From: a virus
Strand: one strand, 5' to 3'
Virus record (IMG/VR): IMGVR_UViG_3300042545_000094
Span: 1-60,104 of that record
DNA length: 60,104 nucleotides
Position numbers and translations under genes: made by a program. The notes beneath the pieces are model-generated. The model was not told the DNA's origin, ran no database searches, and worked only from the letters and a program-made list of their open reading frames with translations. Every line of letters begins with the position of its first letter. Positions within the stretch are counted from its first letter, which is position 1. Below, in pieces: positions 21-60,104 of the stretch.

Positions 21-56
21 AAACAAAAAACCCCCGAGGATTTTCCCCGAGGGTTT
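21..56 (-). terminator. Rho-independent terminator
   Basis: On the minus strand an AAACCC...GGGTTT stem (28-56), with an inner GG/CC stem around an ATTTT loop, is followed by a T-rich run (complement of 21-30). It lies 33 bases past the stop codon of the leftward gene ending at 90. If the molecule is circular, it separates that gene from the next leftward gene and could attenuate rather than fully stop transcription. Confidence 0.7.
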
Positions 57-89: not shown

Positions 90-590
90 TTAGCCTAAGT
101 TATCCACGTTACCGCCAAGAGCTTCAAAAATACTCATGAGGTCGCCCTTAAATTCGCTTGCCTTACAATCTTCGCCCGCTTCCTCAGCTTTAAAGATTCG
201 GTTGATGATTGTCTTAAGGTCAGCTTGCGTCTTATCATCTGTGGATAAATTGGCGGTTACTCGGTTGCCTGTTGTTTGGTATCCGCTTGCCTCTTTTACC
301 CGTTGCCAATATACATCTATCGTGCCACGTGAATAACCTGCCTCGGTCATACCTTTCACAAATTCATCACGCTCGAGTTTTAAACCCTGTCTATCCTTGC
401 CCTTCAACTCATACCAAGGCTTAATCAATTCACCCGTTGCACTCATTACGTTAAATGTAGCGTTGAGATTGTCAGCGTATGTTTTAATCTTTTCACCCGT
501 TGAGCTTGCCACTTTAATAAGTGCAACACGTGAGGCTACTAGGTTGCTATATACGTTGCCGTTTGTGATAACTACGTTTTGATTTTCCAT
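90..590 (-). CDS. Hypothetical protein, candidate early regulator
   Basis: This 166-residue soluble protein has no family I can name. The longer frame starts at 611, but that ATG lies inside the 605-617 palindrome. The ATG at 590 has AAAAGGG 7 bases upstream and gives a natural N-terminus (MENQNVV). Residues around 85-105 (GMTEAGYSRGTIDVYWQRV) could form a helix-turn-helix, and the C-terminus is acidic. It would be the first gene of the leftward arm, with palindromes both between promoter and start (605-617) and upstream of the promoter (725-737). That arrangement suits an autoregulated DNA-binding protein, but this is inference from position only. Confidence 0.75.
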   Translation of the reverse strand: MENQNVVITNGNVYSNLVASRVALIKVASSTGEKIKTYADNLNATFNVMSATGELIKPWYELKGKDRQGLKLERDEFVKGMTEAGYSRGTIDVYWQRVKEASGYQTTGNRVTANLSTDDKTQADLKTIINRIFKAEEAGEDCKASEFKGDLMSIFEALGGNVDNLG

Positions 591-604
591 CTGAATACCC
601 TTTT

Positions 605-617
605 CTAACATTGTTAG
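605..617. promoter_or_regulatory. 13-bp palindrome, exact copy (site 1)
   Basis: CTAACATTGTTAG lies between the predicted leftward promoter (660-689) and the start codon at 590, where a bound protein could block transcription. The flank matters too: positions 606-625 match 60031-60050 at 19 of 20 bases. Confidence 0.8.
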
Positions 618-659: not shown

Positions 660-689
660 AATGTATCACAAAATAGTGGTCTTAATCAA
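660..689 (-). promoter_or_regulatory. Candidate sigma70 promoter, leftward
   Basis: On the minus strand TTGATT (complement of 684-689) and TACATT (complement of 660-665) are separated by 18 bases, about 70 bases before the start at 590. It sits between two exact palindromes, as expected for a regulated early promoter. Match to consensus is moderate. Confidence 0.45.
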
Positions 690-8461: not shown

Positions 8462-9370
8462 ATGGCTATTTCTCGCGCCCAGCTCTTAAAAGAGCTTTTA
8501 CCTGGTCTTAACGCTTTGTTTGGTTTGGAATATGCCAAATACGGTGAAGAGCATAAAGAAATCTTCGAAACAGAAACTTCAGAGCGTTCTTTCGAAGAAG
8601 AAACTAAGTTGTCTGGCTTTACAGCTGCCCCAGTTAAAAACGAAGGTGCTGCAATTGCTTATGACAATGGTCAAGAAGCTTGGACAGCTCGCTACAACCA
8701 TGAGACTATCGCTCAAGGTTTCAGCTTGACTGAAGAAGCTATCGAAGACAACTTGTACGACAGCCTATCTGGCCGTTATACAAAGGCTCTAGCACGTTCT
8801 ATGGCTTACACTAAGCAAGTTAAAGCTGCAAACATTCTTAACAACGGTTTCACTGCTGGTTACACTGGTGGTGACGGTAAGACATTGTTCGCAGCTGACC
8901 ACCCACTAGTTTCTGGTGGTGTGAACAGCAACCGTCCTTCAACTAACGCAGACTTGAACGAAACATCATTGGAAAATGCTGTTATTCAAATCGCTGCTTG
9001 GACTGATGAACGTGGTTTGTTGATTGCTGCTAAGCCAGTGAAATTGGTTGTTCCCCCTGCATTGATGTTCGTTGCAACTCGTTTGCTCGAAACAGAATTG
9101 CGTGTTGGTACTGCTGATAACGACATCAACGCGATTAAGAACAACGGTTCTATCCCAGGCGGATACACAGTAAACCACTACTTGACCGATTCAAACGGTT
9201 GGTATTTGACTACTGATGTACCTAACGGTTTGAAGCACTTTGTTCGTACTCCGTTGCAAAACTCTATGGACGGCGACTTCGATACTGGTAACGTACGTTA
9301 CAAGGCTCGTGAGCGTTATTCATTCGGTTGGTCAGACCCATTGGGTATGTTCGGTTCACCAGGAGCTTAA
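8462..9370 (+). CDS. Major capsid protein (Mu gpT-like)
   Basis: 302 residues with the sequence pattern of the Mu gpT-type HK97-fold major head protein: the N-terminal arm (RAQLLKELLPGLNALFGLEY), the segment ETETSERSFEEETKLSGF, GFSLTEEAIEDNLYDSLSGRY (about 85-110) and a central FAADHPL. It is followed at once by a strong terminator, as expected for the most expressed gene. No cleaved delta-domain protease gene is visible nearby. Confidence 0.9.
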   Translation: MAISRAQLLKELLPGLNALFGLEYAKYGEEHKEIFETETSERSFEEETKLSGFTAAPVKNEGAAIAYDNGQEAWTARYNHETIAQGFSLTEEAIEDNLYDSLSGRYTKALARSMAYTKQVKAANILNNGFTAGYTGGDGKTLFAADHPLVSGGVNSNRPSTNADLNETSLENAVIQIAAWTDERGLLIAAKPVKLVVPPALMFVATRLLETELRVGTADNDINAIKNNGSIPGGYTVNHYLTDSNGWYLTTDVPNGLKHFVRTPLQNSMDGDFDTGNVRYKARERYSFGWSDPLGMFGSPGA

Positions 9371-9383
9371 TCTTGGTAAAAAA

Positions 9384-9406
9384 GGGGAGCTTCGGCTCCC
9401 TTTTTT
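9384..9406 (+). terminator. Rho-independent terminator after capsid gene
   Basis: GGGAGC-TTCG-GCTCCC stem with a stable UUCG tetraloop, extended by an A6/T6 pairing, begins 14 bases past the capsid stop. It is the clearest terminator of the window and cuts the late arm into two transcription units. Confidence 0.95.
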
Positions 9407-10534: not shown

Positions 10535-10867
10535 ATGCCAAGTGTATCAAAGAAGCAGCATAACCTGATGAGCGCGGCAGCTCATAATCCTGCGTTTGCT
10601 AAAAAGGTTGGCGTGCCTGTTAAGGTAGCCAAAGAATTTAACCAAGCCGATAAAGGCAAAAAATTTAAAGAAGGTGGTCCTATGAAACATTCAGATATGG
10701 CACAAGACAAACCAATGATGAAAAAAGTAGCAGCTGAGGCTGTGAAAGGTCATGAAAAGAAGATGCACAAGATGGCTAAAGGCGGTGTAACTCGTGCTGA
10801 TGGCTGTGCTACTAAAGGCCATACAAAGGGCAAAATGATTGCCATGCGTAAAGGCGGGGCTTGCTAA
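10535..10867 (+). CDS. Basic Gly/Lys-rich protein with RADGCA tail
   Basis: 110 residues, about a quarter lysine. N-terminal KKQHNLMSAAAHNPAFAKKVGV looks folded. The C-terminus carries TRADGCATKGHTKGKM, a motif repeated in the next gene. Such Lys/Gly/His-rich proteins could condense DNA or coat the inner capsid. The real role is unknown. Confidence 0.75.
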   Translation: MPSVSKKQHNLMSAAAHNPAFAKKVGVPVKVAKEFNQADKGKKFKEGGPMKHSDMAQDKPMMKKVAAEAVKGHEKKMHKMAKGGVTRADGCATKGHTKGKMIAMRKGGAC

Positions 10868-11100
10868 TGAAAGCCCTAAAAGACTTAAGCGACAAAGCTA
10901 GCGATTATCTAGACAAAAAAGGTCTAGCAAATCCTGCCGAGGTTGTTAATGAAACTTTTGGTGGCGAGACTCGTGAAGAGTCTAAAAAACGTCGTGAAGC
11001 TCCTAAAGAATCTAAAGCAGAACCAAAGAAAATGCGTGCTGGTGGTACAGCTTCTAGCCGCGCTGATGGCTGCGCTATTCGTGGGAAAACGAGGGCTTAA
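10867..11100 (+). CDS. Small basic protein ending RADGCAIRGKTRA
   Basis: 77 residues. The ATG at 10867 overlaps the previous stop (TAATG). The N-terminus is helical and amphipathic, the middle highly charged, and the end (SSRADGCAIRGKTRA) matches the tail of the preceding protein. It may be a partial duplication that keeps only the C-terminal motif. Confidence 0.75.
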   Translation: MKALKDLSDKASDYLDKKGLANPAEVVNETFGGETREESKKRREAPKESKAEPKKMRAGGTASSRADGCAIRGKTRA

Positions 11101-11357: not shown

Positions 11358-12289
11358 TGTCGACTAGTGGCTCTACCGCGTTTAACTTAGAGTTTCGTGA
11401 CATAGCCGAAGAGGCTTATGAGCGTTGCGGGATAGAGATTCGTTCAGGTTACGACCTAAGAACGGCGCGCCGTTCTATGAACTTGCTTTTAATCGAGTGG
11501 GCAAATCGTGGTGTCAACTTGTGGACTGTTGAACAAGGCCAAATCCCTATGGTTACTGGCCAGGGTTTGTACCCTCTTCCAGTTGATACAGTTGACTTGA
11601 TGGATATGGTTATCCGTCAAAACAACGCCAATACAAGCAATCAGATTGACATTAATATCAGTCGTATTGCTGAACCAACATATATGTCGATTCCTAATAA
11701 ATTGACTACAGGACGCCCTATTCAGGTGTATGTGAACCGTCAGTCTGGGATGGACAATGCTACATCTATTACTCTTAGCGGCAATATTACTGCTACCGAT
11801 ACTTCTATCGCTCTTAGCTCTACTACAGGTCTAGCCACTACAGGATTTATTAAGATTGATTCTGAAACTATTGGCTACTCTAATATTGTTGGTAATACTT
11901 TAACTAACTGCTATCGTGGGCAGAATGGCACTACAGCTGTATTACATTTAAGCGGTGCCGCAATTATTAAACAAAACCTCCCATGTATTAACGTATGGCC
12001 TACTCCTAACCCTCCTGGCGACCAGTACTTGTTTGTGTATTACAGACTACGCCGCATGCAGGACGCTGGTGAAGGCGGTGCATATGAGCAGGATATTCCG
12101 TTCCGTTTGATTCCTTGCACAGTTGCGGGGTTGGCGTATTACCTTTCTATGAAGAAGCCTGAAGTGACTCCTGACCGTATTGCTATGTTAAAAGCTGATT
12201 ATGAGCAGCAATGGGACTTGGCGTCTTCTGAAGACCGAGATAAAGCTCCAATACGTTTTGTACCTAGAAACATGTTCTATTACAGATAA
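11357..12289 (+). CDS. Putative head-tail connector / tail accessory protein
   Basis: 310 residues. The N-terminus (FRDIAEEAYERCGIEIRSGY, then ARRSMNLLLIEWANRGVNLW) is a helical pattern seen in phage connector and tail-tube-A-like proteins. The C-terminal part (LFVYYRLRRMQDAG...FRLIPCTVAGLAYYLSMK) continues that fold. A beta-rich segment at about 130-200 (TSIALSSTTGL, GYSNIVGNTLTNCYRGQNG) looks like an inserted Ig-like or hub domain. It lies upstream of the SU10-type adaptor gene. Confidence 0.7.
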   Translation: MSTSGSTAFNLEFRDIAEEAYERCGIEIRSGYDLRTARRSMNLLLIEWANRGVNLWTVEQGQIPMVTGQGLYPLPVDTVDLMDMVIRQNNANTSNQIDINISRIAEPTYMSIPNKLTTGRPIQVYVNRQSGMDNATSITLSGNITATDTSIALSSTTGLATTGFIKIDSETIGYSNIVGNTLTNCYRGQNGTTAVLHLSGAAIIKQNLPCINVWPTPNPPGDQYLFVYYRLRRMQDAGEGGAYEQDIPFRLIPCTVAGLAYYLSMKKPEVTPDRIAMLKADYEQQWDLASSEDRDKAPIRFVPRNMFYYR

Positions 12290-13178: not shown

Positions 13179-13691
13179 ATGCCGTATAAAGACCCTAAAG
13201 ACCCTCGTAAAATTGCGTACAACAAAGCATGGTACAAAGCCAATGCGGAAAAAATACGCGCTTACGGAGAGGTCTATCGGGCGGCTAACAAAGAAAAGTT
13301 ATTAGAAAAGCGTAAACGCCAATATGCCGAGAGTAAAGAAATTGAAAACATTCGAGGTAGAGAATGGCATGCTGCTAACAAAGATAGTGTAGCAGTTAGA
13401 AAAAGAACGTATAGAGCGAATAACAAAGCAATTATTAATGCTAACGCGGCTAAAAGACGCGCAGCACAGCAAACACCTAGTTGGTTATCTAAGTTTGATA
13501 AGCTAAAAATACGATGTGTTTACTCTGTTGCAACCATGCTTACACGGGAAAATAACGAACCTTGGCATGTAGACCATATCGTTCCATTACAAGGTAAATT
13601 AGTGTGTGGACTCCATACCCCAAATAACCTACAATTTATTAAAGCTGAACACAATTTAGCAAAAAGCAATACATACGAGGGTAAACCCTAA
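13179..13691 (+). CDS. HNH homing endonuclease
   Basis: 170 residues from the ATG at 13179. A frame from 13125 reads back into the previous gene. The N-terminal half is basic and helical with repeated K-A/N-N-K units (likely DNA contact). The C-terminal HNH motif is complete: H130-V-D132-H133, N150, H158. Such free-standing nucleases insert between structural genes and spread by cutting relatives. It overlaps the next gene by 1 base and is not expected to serve the virion. Confidence 0.85.
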   Translation: MPYKDPKDPRKIAYNKAWYKANAEKIRAYGEVYRAANKEKLLEKRKRQYAESKEIENIRGREWHAANKDSVAVRKRTYRANNKAIINANAAKRRAAQQTPSWLSKFDKLKIRCVYSVATMLTRENNEPWHVDHIVPLQGKLVCGLHTPNNLQFIKAEHNLAKSNTYEGKP

Positions 13692-23374: not shown

Positions 23375-23808
23375 ACCTAACCCCACACTTCACCCTTGAA
23401 GAACTAACCACTAGCGAGACAGCTGTCCGTAATGGCTTAGACAACACCCCAGGCCCTGTTGCGTATCAAAACTTAGTGCGTTTAGCTAACTTCCTAGAAG
23501 AGGTTAAAAAGGTGCTTGGTGGTAAGCCGATTATGATTAATTCAGCTTATCGTGGTCCTGAAGTAAATAAGCACGTAGGTGGGTCTAAGGCAAGCCAGCA
23601 TATGGTTGGTTGCGCTGCTGATATTCGTGTTCCTGGAATGACCCCAGATGCTATTTGCCGTGCGATTATTGCTTCAAAACTTCAGTATGACCAGTTAATC
23701 CGTGAGTTTGATTCTTGGACACATATCAGCATACCTAACGAAGAGGGCTCGACACCGAGAGGCCAAACGCTTATCATTGACCGTGCAGGAACCCGTCCAT
23801 TTGTCTGA
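23371..23808 (+). CDS. Endolysin, peptidase M15 family
   Basis: 145 residues, a zinc L,D- or D,D-peptidase that cuts peptidoglycan cross-links. Zinc ligands are visible as H77 and D84 in SQHMVGCAADI and H118 in WTHISI. There is no signal peptide, so it depends on the holin. No cell wall binding domain is present, as usual for phages of Gram-negative hosts. Confidence 0.93.
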   Translation: MNLTPHFTLEELTTSETAVRNGLDNTPGPVAYQNLVRLANFLEEVKKVLGGKPIMINSAYRGPEVNKHVGGSKASQHMVGCAADIRVPGMTPDAICRAIIASKLQYDQLIREFDSWTHISIPNEEGSTPRGQTLIIDRAGTRPFV

Positions 23809-23816
23809 GGTAAATT

Positions 23817-25709
23817 ATGCCATTCCAGAAGCTACAATTTAAGCCTGGGGTCAATCGAGACCAAACTAACTACACTAACGAGGGTGGTTGGTACGAGTGC
23901 GACAAAGTTAGGTTTCGTTCTGGTATGCCAGAAAAAATTGGGGGTTGGTTAAAAGCCACATCTCAAACAATGATTGGCTCATGTCGCCAGCTATTTGGAT
24001 GGGTTACGTCTTACACTGATAACTTCTTAGCTTGTGGCACAAATAAAAAGGCCTATATTGAAGTTGGTGCTATTTTTTATGACATTACGCCGCTACGTGC
24101 CGCTACACCAACGCTAACTACTCCTGTTACAGATAACTGTATTACTACAACTAATGGGTCAAGTACCGTAACTATTGTGGCGGTTGGGGCTGCGCCGATT
24201 GAAAATAACTACGTTACTATTTCCGGCGCTACGGCGGTTGGTGGTATTTCCGCCGCATTATTAAACGCAAACCACAAGATTGTTACTGCGATTAATACAA
24301 ATGCTTTTACTATAGTTGTAGGGGCAAATGCTACGTCTGGTGCGACTGGCGGCGGTACTGCGATTGACTTAGAGTTTGAAATTAACGTTGGTAATGCGTC
24401 TTCTACACTAGGCTATGGCTGGGGCACAAGTACATGGAACGACAACTTTGGTTGGGGCTTATCTAGCCCAGTGCCTATTGACTTACCGCAGCAAGATTGG
24501 TGGTTTGACCAGTTTGATAACAACTTAGTTATGAATATTCGTAACGGCCCTATTTATTACTGGGAGCGTGGTACAGACCCTAACCCTGGTGTTTCTTTAA
24601 CTACAAGGGCTGTTTTACTGTCTACTATTTCTGGAGCCGCTGACGTACCTAATAAGGCTATGCAGACATTGGTATCTCAAAACGATAAACATTTGTTAGC
24701 TTTTGGTTGCCAACCCTACGCAGGTCTATCTACTGACTATGACCCACTGTTAATTCGTTGGGCTTCTCAAGACGACCCTGGTATGTGGACACCACAAGTA
24801 ACTAACACGGCGGGCTTTCTTCGTGTAGGCCGAGGTTCTAACATTGTGCGGGCTGTACCAACACGTCAAGAGATTCTAGTGTTTACTGAGTCTACGCTTA
24901 ATTCGTTGCAATTCACTGGCACTTCTGATGTGTTTTCATTGCAAGAAATTGGCGATAATATATCTATTATTGGCCCTCGTGCAGTTACTGTAGTTAACAA
25001 TATGACCTTCTGGATGGGTCACGATAAGTTCTATGTCTACTCAGGTCGAGTAGAAACACTCCCTTGTACCTTACGTAACTTTGTGTTTAATAACATTAAC
25101 TTTGACCAAGCCGACCAAATTGTGTGCGGGACTAATGAAGGTTGGAATGAAGTTTGGTGGATGTACCCAAGTGGCACAAGTCAATATAACAATGCTTACG
25201 TTATTTACAATCATTTAGAACGTATTTGGTACTACGGCAATATTTCTCGCACCGCTTGGATAGATAGCCCGTTGCGTGAGTTCCCACAAGCTGTGTTTAC
25301 TGATGATACGACTGAGTTAAGTTACTTATATAACCACGAATCTGGCACAAACGATGACGGCGCACCGATGACTGCTTATATTCAGTCTTCTGACTTTGAC
25401 CTAATGGAAGGCGACCAGTTTGTATTGACACGTCGTATGATTCCTGACGTTAACTTTGATGGCTCTACGGCTACTAACCCAGAGGCTAACTTCATTATTC
25501 GTCCACGCAACTTCCCAGGCAGTTCGTTCTACAACAACGCAAGTAATACGCAACGGGTTATTCAAACTACGGTTAATCAATTCACAGAGCAAGTATTTAT
25601 CCGTGCCCGTGCTCGTCAGTTAGCATTAAAAATTGAATCTACTGGCTTAGATACACAATGGCAACTAGGTAGTCCGCGTTTAGATATGCGTCCGGACGGT
25701 AAGAGATAA
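23817..25709 (+). CDS. Putative tail nozzle protein
   Basis: 630 residues, Trp-, Asn- and Gly-rich. The N-terminus (QLFGWVTSYTDNFLACGTNKK) and middle (AFGCQPYAGLSTDYDPLLIR, VFTESTLNSLQFTG) show repeated beta-blades as in podoviral nozzle or gp10-like stabilisation proteins. A beta insertion lies at about 100-185. Together with the adaptor it would close the portal channel. It overlaps the next gene by 1 base. Confidence 0.75.
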   Translation: MPFQKLQFKPGVNRDQTNYTNEGGWYECDKVRFRSGMPEKIGGWLKATSQTMIGSCRQLFGWVTSYTDNFLACGTNKKAYIEVGAIFYDITPLRAATPTLTTPVTDNCITTTNGSSTVTIVAVGAAPIENNYVTISGATAVGGISAALLNANHKIVTAINTNAFTIVVGANATSGATGGGTAIDLEFEINVGNASSTLGYGWGTSTWNDNFGWGLSSPVPIDLPQQDWWFDQFDNNLVMNIRNGPIYYWERGTDPNPGVSLTTRAVLLSTISGAADVPNKAMQTLVSQNDKHLLAFGCQPYAGLSTDYDPLLIRWASQDDPGMWTPQVTNTAGFLRVGRGSNIVRAVPTRQEILVFTESTLNSLQFTGTSDVFSLQEIGDNISIIGPRAVTVVNNMTFWMGHDKFYVYSGRVETLPCTLRNFVFNNINFDQADQIVCGTNEGWNEVWWMYPSGTSQYNNAYVIYNHLERIWYYGNISRTAWIDSPLREFPQAVFTDDTTELSYLYNHESGTNDDGAPMTAYIQSSDFDLMEGDQFVLTRRMIPDVNFDGSTATNPEANFIIRPRNFPGSSFYNNASNTQRVIQTTVNQFTEQVFIRARARQLALKIESTGLDTQWQLGSPRLDMRPDGKR

Positions 25710-41421: not shown

Positions 41422-41652
41422 TTATTTCAAGTCTTTGATAAGTTGTTTTATTGCTTCTACTGAGTCGCCCTTAGGTTCATAGGCACCTATAAACCAGTTG
41501 TACACCGTCTGACGACTAACCCCTAATGATGTTGCTACTCTTGACACAGGGATTTTTCGTTTGATGCACTTCTTTCCGAGCTTCACTCCGAGAAGGCCTT
41601 GCTCCGCCTTCTCGTTCAGCAATATAACATTTAAGCTATACCCAATGCTCAT
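41422..41652 (-). CDS. Cro/CI-type HTH protein
   Basis: 76 residues with one helix-turn-helix at about 35-56 (PVSRVATSLGVSRQTVYNWF), as in small Cro-like regulators. The flanks are too short for a CI-type repressor with a dimer domain. It sits before an attenuator and the primase gene and may regulate them, or may bind the 13-bp palindromes. Preceded by the ssDNA-binding candidate with a 2-base gap. Confidence 0.8.
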   Translation of the reverse strand: MSIGYSLNVILLNEKAEQGLLGVKLGKKCIKRKIPVSRVATSLGVSRQTVYNWFIGAYEPKGDSVEAIKQLIKDLK

Positions 41653-52363: not shown

Positions 52364-52795
52364 TTAGATTTTTCCCGTAGCTTTGTATTGCTTTAGTTGT
52401 TCTTTCATAAGGCGAACCATCTCTTCGTCAAGTGTTTCACTACCTACGTGAAGGCTATTAGCAGTAAACGCACTTGCTGTGTTTGGCTGTAAAGTCACTA
52501 TCGGAGTGTTGTATGGGTGCTGATACGGCATTTGCCTTGGTGTTTCTACCACGTCATGCACTTCACCCGCAGTCAGTATGTGCTTCATAACTCGTTGGCT
52601 AAACAACTCACGATGTGCTTCTTTGAGTGCATCTTGGAAAGCCTTAAGCTCTTCTTCGGTCAGGCAGTGTCGCCAGTTACTCACTAGATTTTCCCATTTG
52701 TTACGGAGACCGCCTTCTCTAACATAGTCATCGGGTGCAAACTCCTCAGGGTTGCTCTGCATACGAGCGATAAGCATTTCTATTCCTCGGTTCAT
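52364..52795 (-). CDS. Tandem paralogue C of MNxG-PEEF family
   Basis: 143 residues. Starts MNRGIEMLIARMQSNPEEF, nearly the same as the two genes upstream, and has the shared FSQRVMKHIL segment later. The C-terminal part is different and ends LMKEQLKQYKATGKI. It abuts the polymerase gene. Function unknown. Confidence 0.75.
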   Translation of the reverse strand: MNRGIEMLIARMQSNPEEFAPDDYVREGGLRNKWENLVSNWRHCLTEEELKAFQDALKEAHRELFSQRVMKHILTAGEVHDVVETPRQMPYQHPYNTPIVTLQPNTASAFTANSLHVGSETLDEEMVRLMKEQLKQYKATGKI

Positions 52796-53148
52796 TTTGT
52801 GTCCTTAAATACTGTTCTGCCTTTTGTTAAATACTTGAATGTATCTAGTGTGTGTTGTGTGTAAGCTTCTTTCATCGCCAAGCTCATACCTTGCTCAACT
52901 ATCTGTTGAATATCTATCAACTCTTTTCGTTTCTTTTCTTCTTTGTCAGCAAGCAACTGTTTAATTACTCGCTCAGTAAACTCTTGGCTACGTATCTCAC
53001 ATAACTTATCCCAAAAGGCTTCCTTATCTTCTCCAGTCATGTATTTCTTGTAGTGACTAAACAAGTGTTCCCACCTATCGCTGTCACGCAAGAACTCTTC
53101 GGGATGGCTTTCCATGCGAGCCAATAGAATCTCTATGCCCTTGTTCAT
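52792..53148 (-). CDS. Tandem paralogue B of MNxG-PEEF family
   Basis: 118 residues. Start MNKGIEILLARMESHPEEF and FTERVIKQLLADKEEKK match its neighbours. Overlaps both by 4 bases. Helical and charged throughout. Presumably arose by duplication of one of the adjacent genes. Confidence 0.75.
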   Translation of the reverse strand: MNKGIEILLARMESHPEEFLRDSDRWEHLFSHYKKYMTGEDKEAFWDKLCEIRSQEFTERVIKQLLADKEEKKRKELIDIQQIVEQGMSLAMKEAYTQHTLDTFKYLTKGRTVFKDTK

Positions 53149-53582
53149 GTATTAATCCCCATCTCATCTTTGTGTCTTATGTAATCGCCTAGCGTCATGC
53201 CAAGCTCTTTAGCTACTTTGATGTCCAACGCCGTGACTTTTGTAACACCGCCTTTTGCGCTTGCGCTTGGTCGTTGTGCTAAAACAGATGATAGTTCCAA
53301 GTCAGATTCTCTTAGCAGAGTATTCATAATCTGTTTAGTAAACTGGTCGCCCCTTACTTCCTGCATGGCACGCCATAGCTCGGCTACCTCAGCGTCGCTT
53401 AAGAAATCTAGGTAGTTGATGGGGTTCTCAGAACCCATAGCGTTAGCACGTGCTTCTACTTGCACTAGGACGTGTCGCCACTTCTCAGGGTATCTGCCTG
53501 TTATGTCAGGCATAAATTCTTCAGGGTTGCTCTTTACTCTTTCAAGTAATATCTGCACGCCTTTGTTCATTTCCTGTGTCAT
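53145..53582 (-). CDS. Tandem paralogue A of MNxG-PEEF family
   Basis: 145 residues from the ATG at 53582, with AAGGAG 7 bases upstream, giving MTQE before the shared MNKGVQILLERVKSNPEEF. A later segment FTKQIMNTLLRES matches the other two. The C-terminal part (VTKVTALDIKVAKELGMTLG) could be a DNA-binding helix pair. Overlaps VRR-NUC by 41 bases. Confidence 0.75.
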   Translation of the reverse strand: MTQEMNKGVQILLERVKSNPEEFMPDITGRYPEKWRHVLVQVEARANAMGSENPINYLDFLSDAEVAELWRAMQEVRGDQFTKQIMNTLLRESDLELSSVLAQRPSASAKGGVTKVTALDIKVAKELGMTLGDYIRHKDEMGINT

Positions 53583-53874
53583 TGATTAGCTCCTTTAGGG
53601 TATCTTCTAACATTGTTAGATTCTCTTCGTTTATTACAATAGCCCTACCGCCCGCATCACGGATTGATTGCATTTCTTTCTCTTGTAACGCAGTAGGGGT
53701 ATTCTTACCAGCCTTGCATTCAATTCCTAAGAATCGTCCTCTAACGCAAGTGATGATGTCAGGCACGCCACTTCGCCCGAACCCATGGGTTGCGGGGAAA
53801 AAATAATAAACGTCATAAGCCTTCAAAAGCTTAACGCATTTATCTTTAACTTTCTTTTCGGGTGTAGATGCCAT
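53542..53874 (-). CDS. VRR-NUC nuclease
   Basis: 110 residues from the ATG at 53874. A TTG at 53889 lies inside the promoter -10 box. PD-(D/E)XK core: GVPD39, E52-C-K54 in GIECKAGK, Q64 in TALQ. Stand-alone VRR-NUC proteins cut branched DNA. The palindrome at 53607-53619 is inside its coding sequence (LTML). Confidence 0.9.
   Translation of the reverse strand: MASTPEKKVKDKCVKLLKAYDVYYFFPATHGFGRSGVPDIITCVRGRFLGIECKAGKNTPTALQEKEMQSIRDAGGRAIVINEENLTMLEDTLKELINDTGNEQRRADIT
53607..53619. promoter_or_regulatory. 13-bp palindrome, exact copy (site 3)
   Basis: CTAACATTGTTAG inside the VRR-NUC gene. The gene reads it as L-T-M-L. It is the leftmost member of the array in the right-hand cluster, 1525 bases from the next. 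Confidence 0.8.
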
Positions 53875-53880
53875 GTCCCT

Positions 53881-53908
53881 ATAATACAAGGGTCTTGGAC
53901 TTTGTCAA
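53881..53908 (-). promoter_or_regulatory. Sigma70 promoter for VRR-NUC unit
   Basis: TTGACA (complement of 53903-53908), 16-base spacer, TATTAT (complement of 53881-53886). The ATG of VRR-NUC begins 6 bases after the -10 box, so the transcript may be leaderless or start within it. The left half matches the promoter at 42981-43008. Confidence 0.8.
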
Positions 53909-53979
53909 GGGCTTTTTTGAAATTATTTTTAGGGGTTGGGTGGTGATGTAGATTGACCGCCACCCGTCGGTCTAGGAAA

Positions 53980-54020
53980 GGACTAGCTAGCTGAATAAAT
54001 TAGGGGGGACTAGCTAGTTG
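53980..54020. repeat. GGACTAGCTAG direct repeat
   Basis: GGACTAGCTAGCTG (53980-53993) and GGACTAGCTAGTTG (54007-54020), 27 bases apart, in the 180-base gap between VRR-NUC promoter and secreted-peptide gene. A GACCG/CGGTC hairpin lies just left of them. They may be binding sites for an unknown protein. Confidence 0.55.
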
Positions 54021-54086
54021 GCATTAAGCTTTTACATCTACAAGGCGACTAGGCTCATACCATATGTATTTACCCCCCTCAAAACT

Positions 54087-54236
54087 TTAGAAACAAGTTG
54101 TATTACAGTTACCGCCGTAGCAACAAGTTGTGCAAGTAGTGAACTTGCCATTGATGTTATAAGTCTGTGTAGTGCATTGTGCGTAAACCAATGTAGCTAC
54201 CATAGAAAACCAAACACCTACGATAATCTTTTTCAT
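54087..54236 (-). CDS. Small secreted cysteine-rich protein
   Basis: 49 residues with a very good GGAG site 7 bases before the ATG. The signal peptide (about 1-19, MKKIIVGVWFSMVATLVYA) has a positive start, hydrophobic core and small residues at the cleavage site. The 30-residue mature part has 7 cysteines (TCTTCCYGGNCNTTC), so it is probably disulfide-bonded in the periplasm. Similar tiny exported proteins occur in other phages, function unknown. Followed by a gene-free stretch. Confidence 0.82.
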   Translation of the reverse strand: MKKIIVGVWFSMVATLVYAQCTTQTYNINGKFTTCTTCCYGGNCNTTCF

Positions 54237-54237
54237 T

Positions 54238-54726
54238 TTATTTCTCCAAAGTTGATACAAGTTTATTAAGATACCACTGGGCTTTCTTTAAATCCTTAAC
54301 AGCATCGCCCTTGTTGTTCGCACGACTAAGATACTTCAACGCCGTTAGGCGTAAGTGTCCTGTGAACTCTTCCTTCGTTGACTTAGCTTCCATGTAGTCA
54401 ATCGTTTCAATACCGCCAAACGTGTAATGCTCAGGGTGATTCACATCATCTTTAGCGTTGGTGGCAATCATTCTGTTTAGTGGCTTAGTAGTAGTAAACA
54501 TAGCGACTGTCGGCATACGCATTGGTGGGCGACCCCGTAACTTAGCATGCCCTTGGCTTGCCTTGAATGCCAAGTCAGATTCAGCTTTAGCTTTCTCCTT
54601 GGCTTTAGCTACAAGTGCGTATACATACTTGATGTTTAGCCCTAGCTTCTTAGCTATTTCTTCCCGCTTCCACGCAGGATTCTTTGCTAGTAGCTCTGCT
54701 ACCTTTTGCACATTAGTTTTCTTCAT
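54238..54726 (-). CDS. DUF3310 protein with N-terminal HTH
   Basis: 162 residues. I chose ATG 54726 (GAGG upstream) over 54753. Residues about 5-40 (VQKVAELLAKNPAWKREEIA, KKLGLNIKYVYALV) form a helix-turn-helix. The C-terminus VNHPEHYTFGGIETIDYME...LKYLSRANNKGD is the DUF3310 domain, known from T7 gp1.7, a nucleotide kinase. A fusion of both is found in several phages. Function may be nucleotide metabolism with regulation. Confidence 0.88.
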   Translation of the reverse strand: MKKTNVQKVAELLAKNPAWKREEIAKKLGLNIKYVYALVAKAKEKAKAESDLAFKASQGHAKLRGRPPMRMPTVAMFTTTKPLNRMIATNAKDDVNHPEHYTFGGIETIDYMEAKSTKEEFTGHLRLTALKYLSRANNKGDAVKDLKKAQWYLNKLVSTLEK

Positions 54727-54901
54727 TTTGCTTTTCCTCTTCTTGTTTAACAAACTGCTCTAAGGCTAATCTAATAGCCTTGCTCTTTGACGGATACTTG
54801 TTAAAAAACTTTACTATGTCTTTATCAACTCGCAAGCTAACATATACCATAGCGGGCTTTTTACCAAGACCCCGACCCTTTCGTTTCACTTCATCATTCA
54901 T
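54713..54901 (-). CDS. Ribbon-helix-helix (CopG/Arc-like) protein
   Basis: 62 residues from the ATG at 54901. The frame can be extended to 54943 but overlaps the previous gene. MVYVSLRVDKDIVKFFNKY, then SKSKAIRLALEQFVKQ is the strand-helix-helix pattern of RHH repressors, with a basic N-terminus. RHH dimers bind palindromes, so it is a candidate for the 13-bp site. Overlaps both neighbours. Confidence 0.8.
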   Translation of the reverse strand: MNDEVKRKGRGLGKKPAMVYVSLRVDKDIVKFFNKYPSKSKAIRLALEQFVKQEEEKQNEEN

Positions 54902-55742
54902 GCTTTTCCTCACTTTGTGGTAATACAACAAAAGTATTCTCATCTACTCTGAAGCCAATGTTAGTAATCAACGTCTGATTCTCTACTAGCTTTAGCATAC
55001 CCACCCCTCTACGGATAAAGTCAGGTAGTTCTTCGCTACTCATAATACTCGGTTGACTTTGTCCAAGTGACACAGAATAATTCATTCCGTCAATAAATAC
55101 AAGATATGCTTTACCGCTAACTACCATGTCCCTAACTTTGTTAGTATGGCTAAGATTAGTCATAGCTTCGGGGAACAACTCAACACTTGTAGCAACAGGT
55201 GTATCTTTAGTCGCTGCCTTAAAAGCTTCTATATTTTCTAGTAGGAATAAGCGACCACGCTCTTCAACATTACGCCATACACCATTGAATGCGTAATACT
55301 TTTCCCTTGAGATGTTCTCAATGGTCTCTCGCATTTGTCGCTTGGCTTCAGTCAGTTTCTCGTCTAGGTTCTTAAGCCCAAAGAACTTTTCCACATGACG
55401 AACGGCTTTGTTCAAGTGAATAGTTTTCATACCCGACCCACGCTCACGCATATCTTGCACTCGGTGGTTGTTAATCCAAAAGCGTTTCCCCGAACGCATA
55501 TAGTCAATACCGATTTGACCTAGCACTTCATACTTATCGGTAATCTTCATACGCTCAATAGTCCAAGTGATGCCGTTCTCAGTATGTCGCTTACAGTTAT
55601 AGTCAGCCTCGAACTTCCACTCAGGGTGCTTTAACGCCAGCTCTTCTACCAATGGTGCTAGGAAAGTATCCACAACGGATTCAACTTTCCCACCCTTACC
55701 ATCGTCCTTCATCTCTAGTATTACGTTATCAAACTTAATCAT
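54894..55742 (-). CDS. Hypothetical early protein, 282 residues
   Basis: I chose ATG 55742 with AAGGA 6 bases upstream. No family recognised. An alpha/beta N-terminal half (PEWKFEADYNCKRHT) is followed by a coiled coil (about 125-150) and a C-terminal strand-rich part. It contains palindrome site 55132-55144. It lies in the block with MoxR and VWA genes, possibly one complex. Confidence 0.78.
   Translation of the reverse strand: MIKFDNVILEMKDDGKGGKVESVVDTFLAPLVEELALKHPEWKFEADYNCKRHTENGITWTIERMKITDKYEVLGQIGIDYMRSGKRFWINNHRVQDMRERGSGMKTIHLNKAVRHVEKFFGLKNLDEKLTEAKRQMRETIENISREKYYAFNGVWRNVEERGRLFLLENIEAFKAATKDTPVATSVELFPEAMTNLSHTNKVRDMVVSGKAYLVFIDGMNYSVSLGQSQPSIMSSEELPDFIRRGVGMLKLVENQTLITNIGFRVDENTFVVLPQSEEKHE
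55132..55144. promoter_or_regulatory. 13-bp palindrome, one mismatch (site 4)
   Basis: CTAACTTTGTTAG, inside the 54894-55742 gene, read as T-N-K-V-R. The two half-sites are perfect except for the inner base. Confidence 0.6.
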
Positions 55743-55751
55743 ATACATTCC

Positions 55752-56609
55752 TTACCAGTTAAATTTATTAAGAATCTCATCTACCTTACTCTTTACATCT
55801 TGGCGAACGTCAGCGTGTTCTTTAATATCTTCAATGTCCACACCTAACATTGTTAGTTCTAGCGACCTACGTGCTTCCTCTAACTTAGGGTCTTTCGTAA
55901 TGTTCAAGTGCGTAAGTAGTCCACACAACTCGGTTGCATTAGTGATAAGCGAATCGTGATACCGCTTCTTGCTCTCAGTATCTTCCTCGTTCTCAGTTAG
56001 CTTTTCCGATAAGTGTGTCAGGGTCTTGTGTAGCTTGTCCCAGTTCTCACGCATAGCATCATTCAGCCTGTCGTTGAACGCACTCTCATACTTACTTGCT
56101 AGCTCTTGCATATCCATTTGTGGAATATCCAAACGGAAATCATTGCTCTCAGGTAGCGGACTAAACACTAGCTTGAACCCGAACTTATCTTTGAGGCTAT
56201 CTATACTAGGATAGTCATTAGCGTTGAACAACGAACCCAAGTGTAGCTTTGCATCAAGCACCAAGTCATCATAGCTATCAAAGAAATCTTGAATCATGGC
56301 GTTCATGTTGCGTTCAATCGTATTCATGTTCTGCTTATACTCCATGAACAATGACGTTGGTAGTAGTCTGCTACCCTTATCACTCCAAGGTAACGTGGTC
56401 TGATTGTGATACAGCCTAGCCCTAGCACCATAGTCAGCAATCTTCTTACGCTTGTTACTACCCGCCATCAAGTTCTTACGAACCTGTGCCGACCCACTAC
56501 TCGCACTATTACTCGCAAGCACGCTATCAGTCGCACCTTTGTCTAACTTGTTCGCAGTCCAAATACTGATGTTTAGTTCTGCCAATACTGCACTAGATGA
56601 AATACTCAT
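55752..56609 (-). CDS. Hypothetical protein, tentatively DUF3150-like
   Basis: 285 residues, mostly helical, with a Ser-rich start (SISSSAVLAELNISIW) and a basic segment (NLMAGSNKRKKIADYGARAR). Proteins of similar length and helical content (DUF3150) accompany MoxR/VWA pairs in other phages. I recall this but cannot verify the match. Start overlaps the small gene's stop by 1 base. Contains exact palindrome site 55844-55856. Confidence 0.72.
   Translation of the reverse strand: MSISSSAVLAELNISIWTANKLDKGATDSVLASNSASSGSAQVRKNLMAGSNKRKKIADYGARARLYHNQTTLPWSDKGSRLLPTSLFMEYKQNMNTIERNMNAMIQDFFDSYDDLVLDAKLHLGSLFNANDYPSIDSLKDKFGFKLVFSPLPESNDFRLDIPQMDMQELASKYESAFNDRLNDAMRENWDKLHKTLTHLSEKLTENEEDTESKKRYHDSLITNATELCGLLTHLNITKDPKLEEARRSLELTMLGVDIEDIKEHADVRQDVKSKVDEILNKFNW
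55844..55856. promoter_or_regulatory. 13-bp palindrome, exact copy (site 5)
   Basis: CTAACATTGTTAG inside the 55752-56609 gene, read as L-T-M-L-G. Wobble choice preserves a full palindrome. Confidence 0.8.
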
Positions 56610-56773
56610 TATTCATTCTCCTTCAAAAAATTCCATACGCTTTGCTCAAAGTCTGAAAAGTCTTTGGCATCTACTTGGCAATAGTCCTTAGGATTTTCTA
56701 AGTCCATAACCATCAAACACTCACCAAACTTACCTAGTGAATACTCATTGTCATCATCTCTAACTGTTAGCAT
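56609..56773 (-). CDS. Small acidic protein
   Basis: 54 residues, strongly acidic (NPKDYCQVDAKDFSDFEQSV). AAGGAG upstream, overlaps the next start by 1 base. Right after its ATG lies CTAACAGTTAG (56760-56770), a short-spacer version of the palindrome. Function unknown. Confidence 0.7.
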   Translation of the reverse strand: MLTVRDDDNEYSLGKFGECLMVMDLENPKDYCQVDAKDFSDFEQSVWNFLKENE

Positions 56774-56777
56774 CTCA

Positions 56778-57029
56778 TTACTCCTTCGTTGGTTTACCTG
56801 CTAATTTCCACATTGCATATAGCTTGTCAGGTATTAACTCCAAGCTATGCGTCTTAATATCTTCTTGCGGATATACATAATGGGTTGTGTAAGAACCTTT
56901 ACCATCACCTACATCTTTCTGATACTCACTTTCGTAACACTCAGCCTCACCTAACAATGTTACTAACTGAATCGCTTTGTCATGGTCTAACACCCATTGC
57001 TTGTATCCAATAGTTATCTTTGCTTTCAT
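56778..57029 (-). CDS. Hypothetical early protein
   Basis: 83 residues from the ATG at 57029 (GAGGG upstream). A frame from 57125 overlaps the VWA gene. Strand-helix-strand start (AKITIGYKQWVLDHDKAIQL) and a C-terminal helix. The central YQKDVGDGKGSYTTHYVYP is loop-like. No family known. Site 6 is inside. Confidence 0.75.
   Translation of the reverse strand: MKAKITIGYKQWVLDHDKAIQLVTLLGEAECYESEYQKDVGDGKGSYTTHYVYPQEDIKTHSLELIPDKLYAMWKLAGKPTKE
56951..56963. promoter_or_regulatory. 13-bp palindrome, one mismatch (site 6)
   Basis: CTAACAATGTTAC, inside the 56778-57029 gene, read as V-T-L-L-G. Confidence 0.6.
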
Positions 57030-57036
57030 ATATCCC

Positions 57037-58281
57037 TCAGTTCTTAATATGTATCGTCTTACCCATAGGTGCAAACGTGTTCGGATTCCGAACGACTGTC
57101 CATAGCATCGGTGCTTCCCACTCATTACCCCAATCTCCTATACACCCATCGGTCAGCATGATGACTGCCTCAGGTTTAATGTTGTGTTCCTTAAGATAGT
57201 GATGCACACACGTAGGGTCTGTGCCACCACCGCCCATTGGTTTAGTAGAACTAACAATGTTAGATACATCATTAGCGTCATACACTTCATGTCCTGCTAC
57301 TGCACTATCCCAATAGATAAGGTCTACTTTCTCAGGGTGAACCTCGTCAGCAATTCCTTTCACTTCTGAAAGAAACTCATTCAACTCATGCCCACCGATT
57401 GAACCCGACGTGTCAATGCCAATCACCAGATGCCCAACTCTTTCTCCTATTAGGCTAGGCATATACACACCAGTGCCTAGGTATCGTCTGTTCACCCTAC
57501 GCCAACTGCTTGCATCTTTTGCACTACACGTAGACTTCACAAACTCACGTAGTAGCTCACGCCAATCCACCTCAGGCTCAAGTAACTCTGTTAGCTCTCG
57601 GTTCAAACCACCCGCACCATTACCATTTACTTTGTTATTAGCAATCACACCTTGGCGTAGTGCTTGGTCAATCTCACGTTCCAATTCCTTCTTGGTCTCG
57701 GCATCAAGTTCCTTCGCACCTTCCCAGTCATGGTCATCAAAGCCACCGCCACCTTCACCATCACCTTCAAGCGGTTGCCCTTCGCCGAACATACCTTCGC
57801 CATTCTTCTTGTCCTCTTTGAGTAGGTCAAAGACTTGCTTAGCGTTCATGCCACGATACTTCTCATCAACTAGTCCTATTGCCTTACCTTGATGATGTGG
57901 CATTGCAATAACATTGTTAGATTTATCCATGTCTAGCAACATAAGGTTAATCACATAGTCGCAAGCCATGTTCGCCAACTGTTTATCCTCGTCCCACAAC
58001 TTCTTCCAAGTGAACAAGTGTCGGAAAGCCTTGTGCAATGTTTCATGTAGCACAACAAACGCAAGCTCTCTGTCATCAAGCATCTTGATAAACTCACGAC
58101 CATAAGTTTCGTCCCGACCATTCGTGCAAGCGGTTGGAATATCATCTGACACGCGGGTCTTACCCACAGTCATCAAGCCCGACCACAAGGCAAACTTAGG
58201 ATTCCTCATAATAGAAATCTTAACTTTACTAAGTCGCCGCTCTTCTTTGTCTTTGACTACTACGCTAGGTGTATCTAACAT
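57037..58281 (-). CDS. DUF2201/VWA metallopeptidase-like protein
   Basis: 414 residues from the ATG at 58281, with GAGGA 8 bases upstream. The frame reaches back to 58350 but overlaps the MoxR gene. N-terminal metallopeptidase-like motif H79-E80-TLH83 lies in a helix (LAFVVLHETLHKAFRH). A Gly/Glu-rich linker (about 160-185) leads to a von Willebrand A-like domain with MIDAS D290-T-S-G-S and TDG (about 375). Partner of the MoxR ATPase encoded just upstream, as in MoxR-VWA chaperone pairs and CobS/CobT-like chelatases. Start codon lies within a palindrome. Confidence 0.88.
   Translation of the reverse strand: MLDTPSVVVKDKEERRLSKVKISIMRNPKFALWSGLMTVGKTRVSDDIPTACTNGRDETYGREFIKMLDDRELAFVVLHETLHKAFRHLFTWKKLWDEDKQLANMACDYVINLMLLDMDKSNNVIAMPHHQGKAIGLVDEKYRGMNAKQVFDLLKEDKKNGEGMFGEGQPLEGDGEGGGGFDDHDWEGAKELDAETKKELEREIDQALRQGVIANNKVNGNGAGGLNRELTELLEPEVDWRELLREFVKSTCSAKDASSWRRVNRRYLGTGVYMPSLIGERVGHLVIGIDTSGSIGGHELNEFLSEVKGIADEVHPEKVDLIYWDSAVAGHEVYDANDVSNIVSSTKPMGGGGTDPTCVHHYLKEHNIKPEAVIMLTDGCIGDWGNEWEAPMLWTVVRNPNTFAPMGKTIHIKN
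57251..57263. promoter_or_regulatory. 13-bp palindrome, exact copy (site 7)
   Basis: CTAACAATGTTAG inside the VWA gene, read as S-N-I-V-S, which is another reading frame than sites 3 and 5. Confidence 0.8.
57908..57920. promoter_or_regulatory. 13-bp palindrome, one mismatch (site 8)
   Basis: ATAACATTGTTAG inside the VWA gene, read as S-N-N-V-I. Confidence 0.6.
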
Positions 58282-58287
58282 TGTTAG
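58275..58287. promoter_or_regulatory. 13-bp palindrome over VWA start (site 9)
   Basis: CTAACATTGTTAG contains the ATG of the VWA gene (58281-58279) directly after its ribosome site. A protein bound here could block elongation of the MoxR-VWA transcript. Exactly 400 bases from site 10. Confidence 0.8.
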
Positions 58288-58301
58288 TTTCCTCGGTTGG
58301 A

Positions 58302-59369
58302 TTAAAGTAAATCTTCGTTCTTCTGAACCCAGTCGGCGAACTTCGCACAACTGAAAGCTATGTTCTGTTTAGTCGGGGACTTAGCCACGTTGATAGCAAA
58401 GCACGCTTGCCACTCAGGTTCAAACTTCTCCAAGTAAGTCATAAATGGGGTCATTGTTTCCTTGGTAATCTTAGCGATTGCACCGAACACAATAATTGCA
58501 CACGCACCTGCACTCTCAGGGACTTTGGCGTTCTTCGGGTCTTTCATCACAGATTCCCACGTAGGCAACTGGTCTGAATAGTCAATGTATGCTTGCATAT
58601 CACGTGATGCTGATTCGCCCACCGCACCCGTCATTGCACATATCAAGCTATCCGTATCAATCTGAGAGCGAACGCTAACAATGTTAGATACACGCTCAAG
58701 TGAACGAGGCGATACGAACGCAGTCTGCATCTTCTTTGGGTTGTAGATATACGGGTTGTCTGACTGTGCGGGGTCGGTATAACTCGCTAGTGCATGGGGG
58801 AACTGGCGAACCCACGCAATAACTTCGGGTGCGATATTGTTATTGATAGCCCACTCAATCCATTGGTCTGAATCAGGCTTGCTTACTCGTAGCGGGATAA
58901 TACGATTGCGACTATGTGCCTTCAACGTATCGCCCACTCCGTCTGTGCTTAGGTTGCCTGTTAGAAACACAATAGATTCGGGGTGAACTGACACATCACC
59001 CAAACGTGGGTTGGCTACTTCCAATAGTGGGTGCAACATATTCTTAACTGGCTCTGCACCTTTGGTGAACTCATCTAACATTGTTATGACTGGCTTGCCC
59101 GTATGCACTTTGAATCTACTGTTAGGGTAGTAGGCAGTAGTCTTGTTCTCATGGTTGATAACTGGCATGGCAATATCGCCCAAGTCCATGTTCGGCACGT
59201 CAATGTATGCCACTTCATGTTGGGGTAGCTTTGCGGATAGCGACTTAAGTAGAGATGATTTACCAATCCCTGGCTCACCTTCTAATAAGTAGCGGTTCAT
59301 AGGTGTGGCAAGAATAATCTCGCTCGCTTGTTTTAACGTAACTGTTTTACCAAAATTGATTTCACTCAT
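58302..59369 (-). CDS. MoxR-family AAA+ ATPase
   Basis: 355 residues. Walker A GEPGIGKS (31-38), Walker B ITMLDEF (D100-E101), sensor 1 in VFLTGNLS (about 135) and an arginine-finger-like AHSRNRIIPLRV (about 150) are all visible. MoxR ATPases act with VWA proteins as chaperones or chelatases that open or load target complexes. AAGGA lies 7 bases before the start. Two palindromes lie inside the gene and one in its leader. Confidence 0.92.
   Translation of the reverse strand: MSEINFGKTVTLKQASEIILATPMNRYLLEGEPGIGKSSLLKSLSAKLPQHEVAYIDVPNMDLGDIAMPVINHENKTTAYYPNSRFKVHTGKPVITMLDEFTKGAEPVKNMLHPLLEVANPRLGDVSVHPESIVFLTGNLSTDGVGDTLKAHSRNRIIPLRVSKPDSDQWIEWAINNNIAPEVIAWVRQFPHALASYTDPAQSDNPYIYNPKKMQTAFVSPRSLERVSNIVSVRSQIDTDSLICAMTGAVGESASRDMQAYIDYSDQLPTWESVMKDPKNAKVPESAGACAIIVFGAIAKITKETMTPFMTYLEKFEPEWQACFAINVAKSPTKQNIAFSCAKFADWVQKNEDLL
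58675..58687. promoter_or_regulatory. 13-bp palindrome, exact copy (site 10)
   Basis: CTAACAATGTTAG inside the MoxR gene, read as S-N-I-V-S. 400 bases from sites 9 and 11. Confidence 0.8.
59075..59087. promoter_or_regulatory. 13-bp palindrome, one mismatch (site 11)
   Basis: CTAACATTGTTAT overlaps the Walker B codons of the MoxR gene (I-T-M-L-D). Confidence 0.6.
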
Positions 59370-59382
59370 TTGCTTTTCCTTT

Positions 59383-59436
59383 TTAAAAACTTTTTGTTAA
59401 TTTGCATGGCAATCCTGCCACTTCTCGTTTACTCAT
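59383..59436 (-). CDS. Possible 17-residue leader peptide
   Basis: ATG at 59436 follows AGGGG at 10 bases and encodes MSKREVAGLPCKLTKSF before a TAA, 13 bases ahead of the MoxR start. It may be a leader peptide for translational control. No further evidence. Confidence 0.35.
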   Translation of the reverse strand: MSKREVAGLPCKLTKSF

Positions 59437-59448
59437 ATTGTGCTACCC

Positions 59449-59461
59449 CTAACAATGTTAG
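59449..59461. promoter_or_regulatory. 13-bp palindrome in MoxR leader (site 12)
   Basis: CTAACAATGTTAG, intergenic, about 65 bases past the predicted -10 box of the MoxR promoter. With site 1 it shows the same promoter-then-site layout. Next to it, on the right, TGAAATCCT occurs three times (59470-59505). Confidence 0.85.
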
Positions 59462-59526
59462 AACGGATTCTGAAATCCTTTAAGCGTTCCGAAATCCTGA
59501 AATCCTTAATTCTCAACATATACTAT

Positions 59527-59555
59527 ATTGTAACACAAATAATACTCATAGTCAA
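59527..59555 (-). promoter_or_regulatory. Sigma70 promoter for MoxR-VWA unit
   Basis: TTGACT (complement of 59550-59555), 17-base spacer, TACAAT (complement of 59527-59532), overlapping the stop region of the upstream gene. The leader to the MoxR start is about 150 bases and holds an exact palindrome, repeats and a leader peptide candidate. Confidence 0.75.
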
Positions 59556-60104
59556 ATTCCTTCGTGGAACTTTTCCCAACCCGATTGGAAGAAACGTAGA
59601 TACTGGTCACGCTTCAACTCACCATCAGGTAGCTCAACTTCCTTGAAGCACTCTTCTCTGTGGATTCCCCAAAAGAGATTTCTAACAAAGTTAGGTAGCT
59701 CGGTTACTTGCCACTTGTGCATTTCAACACCATCTTCAGCCCAAAGAACATTGCCTTTTGAGCGTGCCAAAATAAGAAGAGCATGATAGTAACTGACGTG
59801 CTTCGTCTCCTCATTTGTGTCGTTGATGCAAGTAACGAACTGACGCAAAGTTTGCATGAAGGCTTGGTAGTGCGGACGTGATAAGTCCCCTTGGTGATTT
59901 AAAACACCATGACCATCTACACCAAATGCTTCTTTGTATTCATTACCACTGAACCTCACATTGCCTTGGTCGTTCACACGTAGCTTGATGACGTTCTCCA
60001 TGTAGGTCATGAATCCCTCGTAGCGTTTCATAACTTTGTTAGAACCCGTCCGATTGATATGGTGAATGATTGCTTTCGGTGCGTTCGCAGGTGTCCAATA
60101 CCCT
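59552..60104 (-). CDS. Hypothetical early protein, cut by window end
   Basis: The frame is open from 59552 to the right edge. An ATG at 60031 exists (159 residues), but the codons upstream read like protein (YWTPANAPKAIIHHINRTG) and no ribosome site precedes 60031. Joining base 60104 to base 1 would add T and then M at positions 5-3, giving about 185 residues. No family recognised. The mid-part (ETKHVSYYHALLILARSKGN) is helical. Contains palindrome variants at 59682 and 60030. Confidence 0.75.
   Translation of the reverse strand, partial: GYWTPANAPKAIIHHINRTGSNKVMKRYEGFMTYMENVIKLRVNDQGNVRFSGNEYKEAFGVDGHGVLNHQGDLSRPHYQAFMQTLRQFVTCINDTNEETKHVSYYHALLILARSKGNVLWAEDGVEMHKWQVTELPNFVRNLFWGIHREECFKEVELPDGELKRDQYLRFFQSGWEKFHEGI
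59682..59694. promoter_or_regulatory. 13-bp palindrome, one mismatch (site 13)
   Basis: CTAACAAAGTTAG inside the right-edge gene, read as N-F-V-R. Confidence 0.55.
60030..60042. promoter_or_regulatory. 13-bp palindrome, two mismatches (site 14)
   Basis: ATAACTTTGTTAG. The larger segment 60031-60050 is a 19-of-20 match to 606-625, so it is more than a chance match. Confidence 0.5.

Follow-up and report, generated by a model that had tools for sequence, protein, structure and literature searches.

What does a short palindrome do when it recurs through the early genes of an uncultured virus, at times in the very codons that specify a catalytic motif? This question is raised by a viral record of 60,104 nucleotides (IMG/VR IMGVR_UViG_3300042545_000094; the whole stretch is referred to here as the window), in which exact copies of the 13-bp sequence CTAACA(A/T)TGTTAG lie at positions 605-617, 725-737, 53607-53619, 55844-55856, 57251-57263, 58275-58287, 58675-58687, and 59449-59461. 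Copies with one mismatch lie at 55132-55144, 56951-56963, 57908-57920, 59075-59087, and 59682-59694, and a copy with two mismatches lies at 60030-60042; all 14 had been reported in an initial annotation of the window, and every one of them is present. Based on the evidence outlined below, we posit that these palindromes are probably double-stranded DNA operators read by a phage protein acting as a dimer. The best candidate is the product of the first gene of the early operon (fam10; 90-611, minus strand), which would repress the early genes.

With up to one mismatch allowed, 13 copies are seen against 0.12 expected, and the largest count in 100 shuffles was 1. A search of the whole record at that threshold found no copy outside the early region; at two mismatches there are four (at 11880, 13375, 15644, and 24838). 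Because of these four additional copies, the sequence by itself makes a weak case for site 60030, which overlaps the start codon of gene 59552-60031. When synonymous codons were permuted within each gene and the proteins were kept (1,000 shuffles), the early genes were found to hold 5 exact copies compared with a shuffle mean of 0.09 (maximum, 2) and 10 copies with up to one mismatch compared with a mean of 0.70 (maximum, 4); all other genes of the window hold 0 copies. The early-gene translations place the in-gene copies in two reading frames, (L/V/I)-T-(M/L)-L and (S/T/P)-N-x-V. Given how far the early-gene counts exceed those of the codon shuffles, the sites are selected at the DNA level, and the initial annotation was right about the two frames, about conservation of the DNA, and about confinement to the early region. 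Its estimate that all 14 copies would fall within about 7.2 kb if the ends joined has to be given up: the window, a linear contig, has left and right ends that are not contiguous and lacks part of the region, and the array extends over more than 7.2 kb because a near-identical contig (L005) extends about 2.75 kb beyond the right end and carries at least six additional sites there.

Is this arrangement peculiar to the window? Relatives were collected via the ATPase gene, and a separate, motif-blind set was collected via the gene for the terminase small subunit (TerS) beside the divergence. Most of the relatives found by the ATPase have the same palindrome, likewise in the early block. Their early loci share one gene order, with the terminase genes running one way and, across a divergent promoter region, fam10, small genes, the ATPase gene, the VWA gene, and the DNA polymerase gene. 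The sites are spaced at a median of 540 bp over about 10 kb, and in the eight loci checked they stop ahead of DNA polymerase, bar one site in G013. The corresponding final site in the window is the one at 53607. Among the cultured relatives identified by terminase (DSL-LC04, 023Pt_psg01, and HTVC027P), no such array was found in the first 50 kb.

The positions of individual sites are also held in common. In the window, site 59449 lies between a predicted sigma70-type promoter (TTGACT-N17-TACAAT; 59528-59556, minus strand) and the AAA (MoxR-like) ATPase gene (58302-59369, minus strand), a slot occupied in 30 of 33 relatives. The ATPase gene itself contains two sites, one at codon 95 (59075), where it coincides with the Walker B codons (V-I-T-M-L-D), and one at codon 228 (58675; S-N-I-V); these are occupied in 19 and 24 of 34 ATPase genes, respectively, always in identical phase. 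The VWA/metallopeptidase-like (DUF2201) gene (57037-58350, minus strand) has two internal sites, at 57908 and at 57251, the latter in a position common to 22 of 33 relatives. A third site, at 58275, is not mid-gene but marks the ATPase/VWA junction, between the ATPase stop (58302) and the real VWA start, which is probably near 58287. Site 55844, within gene 55752-56609, has a position common to 15 of 26 relatives, and sites 59682, 56951, and 55132 lie within genes 59552-60031, 56778-57029, and 54894-55748, respectively. In phages with the common type of array, Walker B reads V-I-T-M-L-D and is written ATA ACA ATG TTA GAY; in array-less phages, it reads V-I-V-M-L-D and is written with other codons, e.g., ATC GTN ATG CTT. 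Similarly, S-N-I-V at codon 228 is mostly TCT AAC ATT GTT in array phages and is written with other codons in array-less phages. The expectation that relatives would keep sites at matching positions holds, with fixed positions at ATPase codons 95 and 228 and comparable ones in the VWA gene and in gene 55752.

Which protein goes with the array? The fam10 gene encodes 173 amino acids if read from 611, with a conserved start (MENQ) at about 590, and a predicted intrinsic terminator (25-56, minus strand; sequence and RNA fold) immediately follows it. Its predicted sigma70-type promoter (TTGATT-N18-TACATT; 660-689, minus strand) sits between two sites: 725, which is upstream in the divergent TerS/fam10 spacer, and 605, which is about 45 bp downstream of the -10 element and just 5' of the ribosome-binding site. 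Flanking of this kind is general, with a site upstream of fam10 in 30 of 32 loci and downstream in 29 of 32. Among 39 nonredundant loci extending at least 2.4 kb beyond TerS, the array is present in 32/32 that bear fam10 (4 to 21 cores); of the seven without it, six have 0 cores and one has three. A search that used just the fam10 protein returned 42 further nonredundant loci, every one with cores (2 to 18). The eight fam10-bearing records of 54 to 66 kb have 15 to 27 copies of TAACANTGTTA each, and G017, a 63-kb record without fam10, has 0 copies of TAACANTGTTA and an unrelated protein in the fam10 slot. In the six core-less loci, as in G017, the first-gene slot is occupied by an unrelated family of about 157 residues (G016 8898-9374 [L064], also L131, L135, L114, L116, and L122) with no Pfam match above cutoff and no match among named phages. 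Several array phages (G004, G007, L082-L087, and L090) carry two fam10 paralogues in tandem. Of the three genes nominated as binders in the initial annotation, gene 90 (fam10) is thus strongly supported by association; the helix-turn-helix protein at 41422 is disfavored, since the array-less 63-kb G017 retains it; and the gene at 54713 is still a rival, to which we return below.

The form of the motif also points to a single reader. Sister palindromes replace that of the window in several relatives (GTAACA-N-TGTTAC in G005, CTGACA-NN-TGTCAG in G010, and CTAACA-NNN-TGTTAG in G011); the half-site TAACA is retained (TGACA in G010), and spacer length ranges from 0 to 3 bases. The dominant length switches about eight times on the fam10 tree. 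Across the cores in the early region examined, the switch extends throughout the array: 10/10 in L072, 9/9 in G010, 10/10 in L209, and all cores also in L123. Arrays of mixed spacer, in L092, L111, and L189, are intermediates. Such a concerted change is what a single protein reading every site would produce. Entirely different palindromes were also seen in conserved array slots of two related phages: ACCGTGGGAATTCCCACGGT and GCGTGGGAATTCCCACGC in G014 (L060 85-104 and 1197-1214), where one slot precedes the ATPase gene and the other marks the ATPase/VWA junction, and CCTGATACGTATCAGG in G015 (L062 58-73), upstream of the ATPase gene only. These may be operator slots shared with the array phages but read with a different specificity; neither contig reaches the fam10 slot.

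How might the sites act? Promoters, taken here as sigma70-type consensus matches and not as mapped transcription starts, are phased with the sites: on the coding strand, matches upstream of sites are enriched 7.3-fold at 51 to 75 bp and 3.0-fold at 26 to 50 bp, and matches downstream of sites are enriched 5.3-fold at 50 to 74 bp (-10 element). The opposite strand shows no promoter peak of comparable size around the sites. The upstream promoter-site segments number 160 and fall into 55 sequence clusters, one of which has 65 members. The promoters near sites have a near-consensus -35 element, many with an extended -10 element, and the usual arrangement is promoter, leader, palindrome, ribosome-binding site, and gene, with the site 40 to 75 bp past the promoter. 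In the model that we propose, the host RNA polymerase would start at these early promoters soon after infection, and fam10 would be produced first. The fam10 dimer would bind the palindrome CTAACAWTGTTAG; at leader sites 40 to 75 bp downstream of promoters, it would stop RNA polymerase from leaving the promoter, and on in-gene sites, it would act as a roadblock to elongation. In this way, the whole early block as far as the DNA polymerase gene would be turned down, and fam10 would cap its own synthesis via the two sites around its promoter (725 and 605).

What is known of fam10 itself? The family has no Pfam or PHROG family and no PDB sequence match at an E value of ≤1, and it was not found in the named phages, plasmids, or bacterial genomes searched. 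Its AlphaFold2 model is all-helical (predicted local distance difference test score, 89). As a guess from that model, helices 64-83 and 88-101, with a short turn between them, could form a helix-turn-helix; the second has a near-invariant tryptophan.

Several observations weigh against fam10 as the repressor that reads these sites. The fam10 model has no Foldseek match among solved structures and shows no known DNA-binding fold. The window-clade and main-clade fam10 proteins differ in the conserved helix yet share one motif. On the ATPase tree, the absence of fam10 amounts to only two events, and the negative side of the association is therefore lightly replicated. Sites about 70 to 80 bp ahead of a start, upstream of promoters, would suit an activator too. 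Finally, fam11 (54713-54943, minus strand), a short ribbon-helix-helix-like protein, is present in 16/16 palindrome-bearing records and was not found in either of two records without the array, G017 (63 kb) and G019 (30.7 kb). Could fam11 be the binder, with fam10 a linked partner, coregulator, or antagonist? Ribbon-helix-helix repressors of the Arc/CopG kind are classic dimers on short palindromes, a group to which fam11 may belong and fam10 does not; the fam11 sequence is Arc/CopG-like, with a weak match to Pfam RHH_1 (E value of 0.023, below cutoff). Nonetheless, we consider this assignment unlikely. Both G014 and G015 have an intact fam11 without the array, which thus does not accompany every ribbon-helix-helix gene, and their strand residues (H-x-N-x-R) are the same as those in array phages G012 and L012; because these two counterexamples are partial contigs, fam11 remains a rival. 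As read by eye, its putative DNA-contact strand residues vary among phages with identical motifs and are alike in G001 and G005 despite motifs that differ at the outer base. Moreover, no flanking sites mark the fam11 gene, and fam11 was not found in the 20 kb of the partial record G011, which has a spacer-3 array.

Other readings concern what the sites do rather than which protein binds them. If the array were a DNA-organizing or centromere-like element of the parS/KorB type, a protein would load on it and spread over or condense the early region, thereby serving partition, replication, or protection; the dispersal of 13-bp palindromes every ~540 bp over ~10 kb does resemble KorB-type operators, and in-gene sites distant from promoters call for an explanation. 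We judge this quite unlikely given that site positions are strongly promoter phased, that the array halts before DNA polymerase, and that no ParA (PF13614) or ParB (PF02195) was found in seven records. An activator or dual regulator, switching on later early promoters from sites upstream of them, would account for the 5.3-fold peak, as 50 to 74 bp is a usual class I activator distance. It is very unlikely in our view: the promoters already have their near-consensus -35 and extended -10 elements, the stronger peak places the site downstream, inside the transcribed leader, and many sites are in genes. Most sites are transcribed, and CC..GG flanks could extend a stem, so might the palindromes instead serve as RNA hairpins in the early transcript, as nut-like or processing sites? 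Among single-change sites, 128 stem changes break a pair and 0 leave a G-U wobble, the site flanks are symmetric, and the fam10 promoter has a site upstream of it; taken together, these features indicate that the sites function as DNA rather than as RNA hairpins. The center base also occurs in both orientations, and the stem with a three-base loop is weak by itself (-1.1 kcal/mol), leaving the RNA reading highly improbable. Chance or codon bias has a negligible probability as the origin of the array; it is contradicted by the shuffle and codon-shuffle counts, by the fixed positions in relatives, and by the cores in 42/42 loci found through fam10.

Does a repressor with many operators have precedents? 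In phage phiC31, dispersed conserved inverted repeats near early promoters are bound by the phage repressor, although phiC31 is an integrating Streptomyces phage with a helix-turn-helix repressor. Between the two parallels drawn in the initial annotation, the L5-type stoperator fits better than the parS-like array, because the sites follow sigma70-type promoters, sit in genes, and come with no ParA or ParB family found. Stoperators of L5 and other cluster A mycobacteriophages are many dispersed 13-bp sites, at and away from promoters, for one phage-encoded repressor (PMC9283540, PMC6550527), and dispersed operators that block elongation are well known mainly from this cluster (PMC6550527). As in L5, the array has many dispersed sites with a single 13-bp consensus and a site in the promoter region of the putative repressor itself; related phages of the L5 group differ in site consensus and in the specificity of their repressors, and here the consensus diverges too. 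In contrast, L5 stoperators are asymmetric, monomer bound, and oriented with transcription, in a group that has integrase or parABS (PMC9283540, PMC6550527); the sites here, which occur just in the early block, are dyads with symmetric flanks and a spacer that varies in length. Unlike the L5 repressor gp71/Rep, with its helix-turn-helix and Stoperator domains, fam10 matches no known family or fold in the searches described above. In seven of the phage records, possibly incomplete, integrase, ParA, and ParB were not detected (PF00589, PF13614, and PF02195; serine integrase was not searched for). The array is also like the KorB operators of IncP plasmid RK2, which are dispersed and control promoters from various distances (PMC11790492); however, KorB, a CTPase clamp of the ParB family, has a 16-bp site (PMC11790492), and no ParB-N domain was found in the seven records. 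The 13-mer itself was not found in the literature searched.

The loci hold other repeats and families as well. TTGTWAG repeats cluster in both orientations just 3' of the first early gene (G005 23499-23900, G001, G016 ~9050-9400, and similar loci) in phages with and without fam10, and the corresponding region is missing from the window. As a replacement array in fam10-less phages, TTGTAAG clusters were rejected, since similar clusters adjoin fam10 in several array phages; they look like a separate element, possibly replication-origin iterons. Tandem repeats of the CTTACAATACA type adjoin the fam10 gene in G011 (10607-10996; L055), and in G014 (13319-13690), the motif GTGAAAACCA recurs about every 36 or 72 bases. 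In the window, three neighboring genes within 52364-53582 (52364, 52792, and 53145) look like tandem duplicates because all group in one family; the members scanned have no Pfam or PHROG match.

What would these arrays mean for the phages that carry them? The full picture would combine a DNA-binding family with a new fold not in the PDB, an early block of apparently nonintegrating phages under 10 to 27 palindromic operators, an array spacing (0 to 3 bases, perhaps with wholly different palindromes) that is repeatedly rewritten, and selection on a site that alters a Walker B residue; we regard the chances that this combination is correct as evenly balanced. If it is true, stoperator-like control would have evolved independently in an abundant group of uncultured phages without detectable integrase, where the sites are palindromes and the protein is unrelated. 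The phages would also provide natural cases in which entire operator arrays are respecified together, with L092, L111, and L189 as intermediates, making the co-change of a regulator and its many sites directly testable. For fam10, a family without annotation, the array would supply a testable function.

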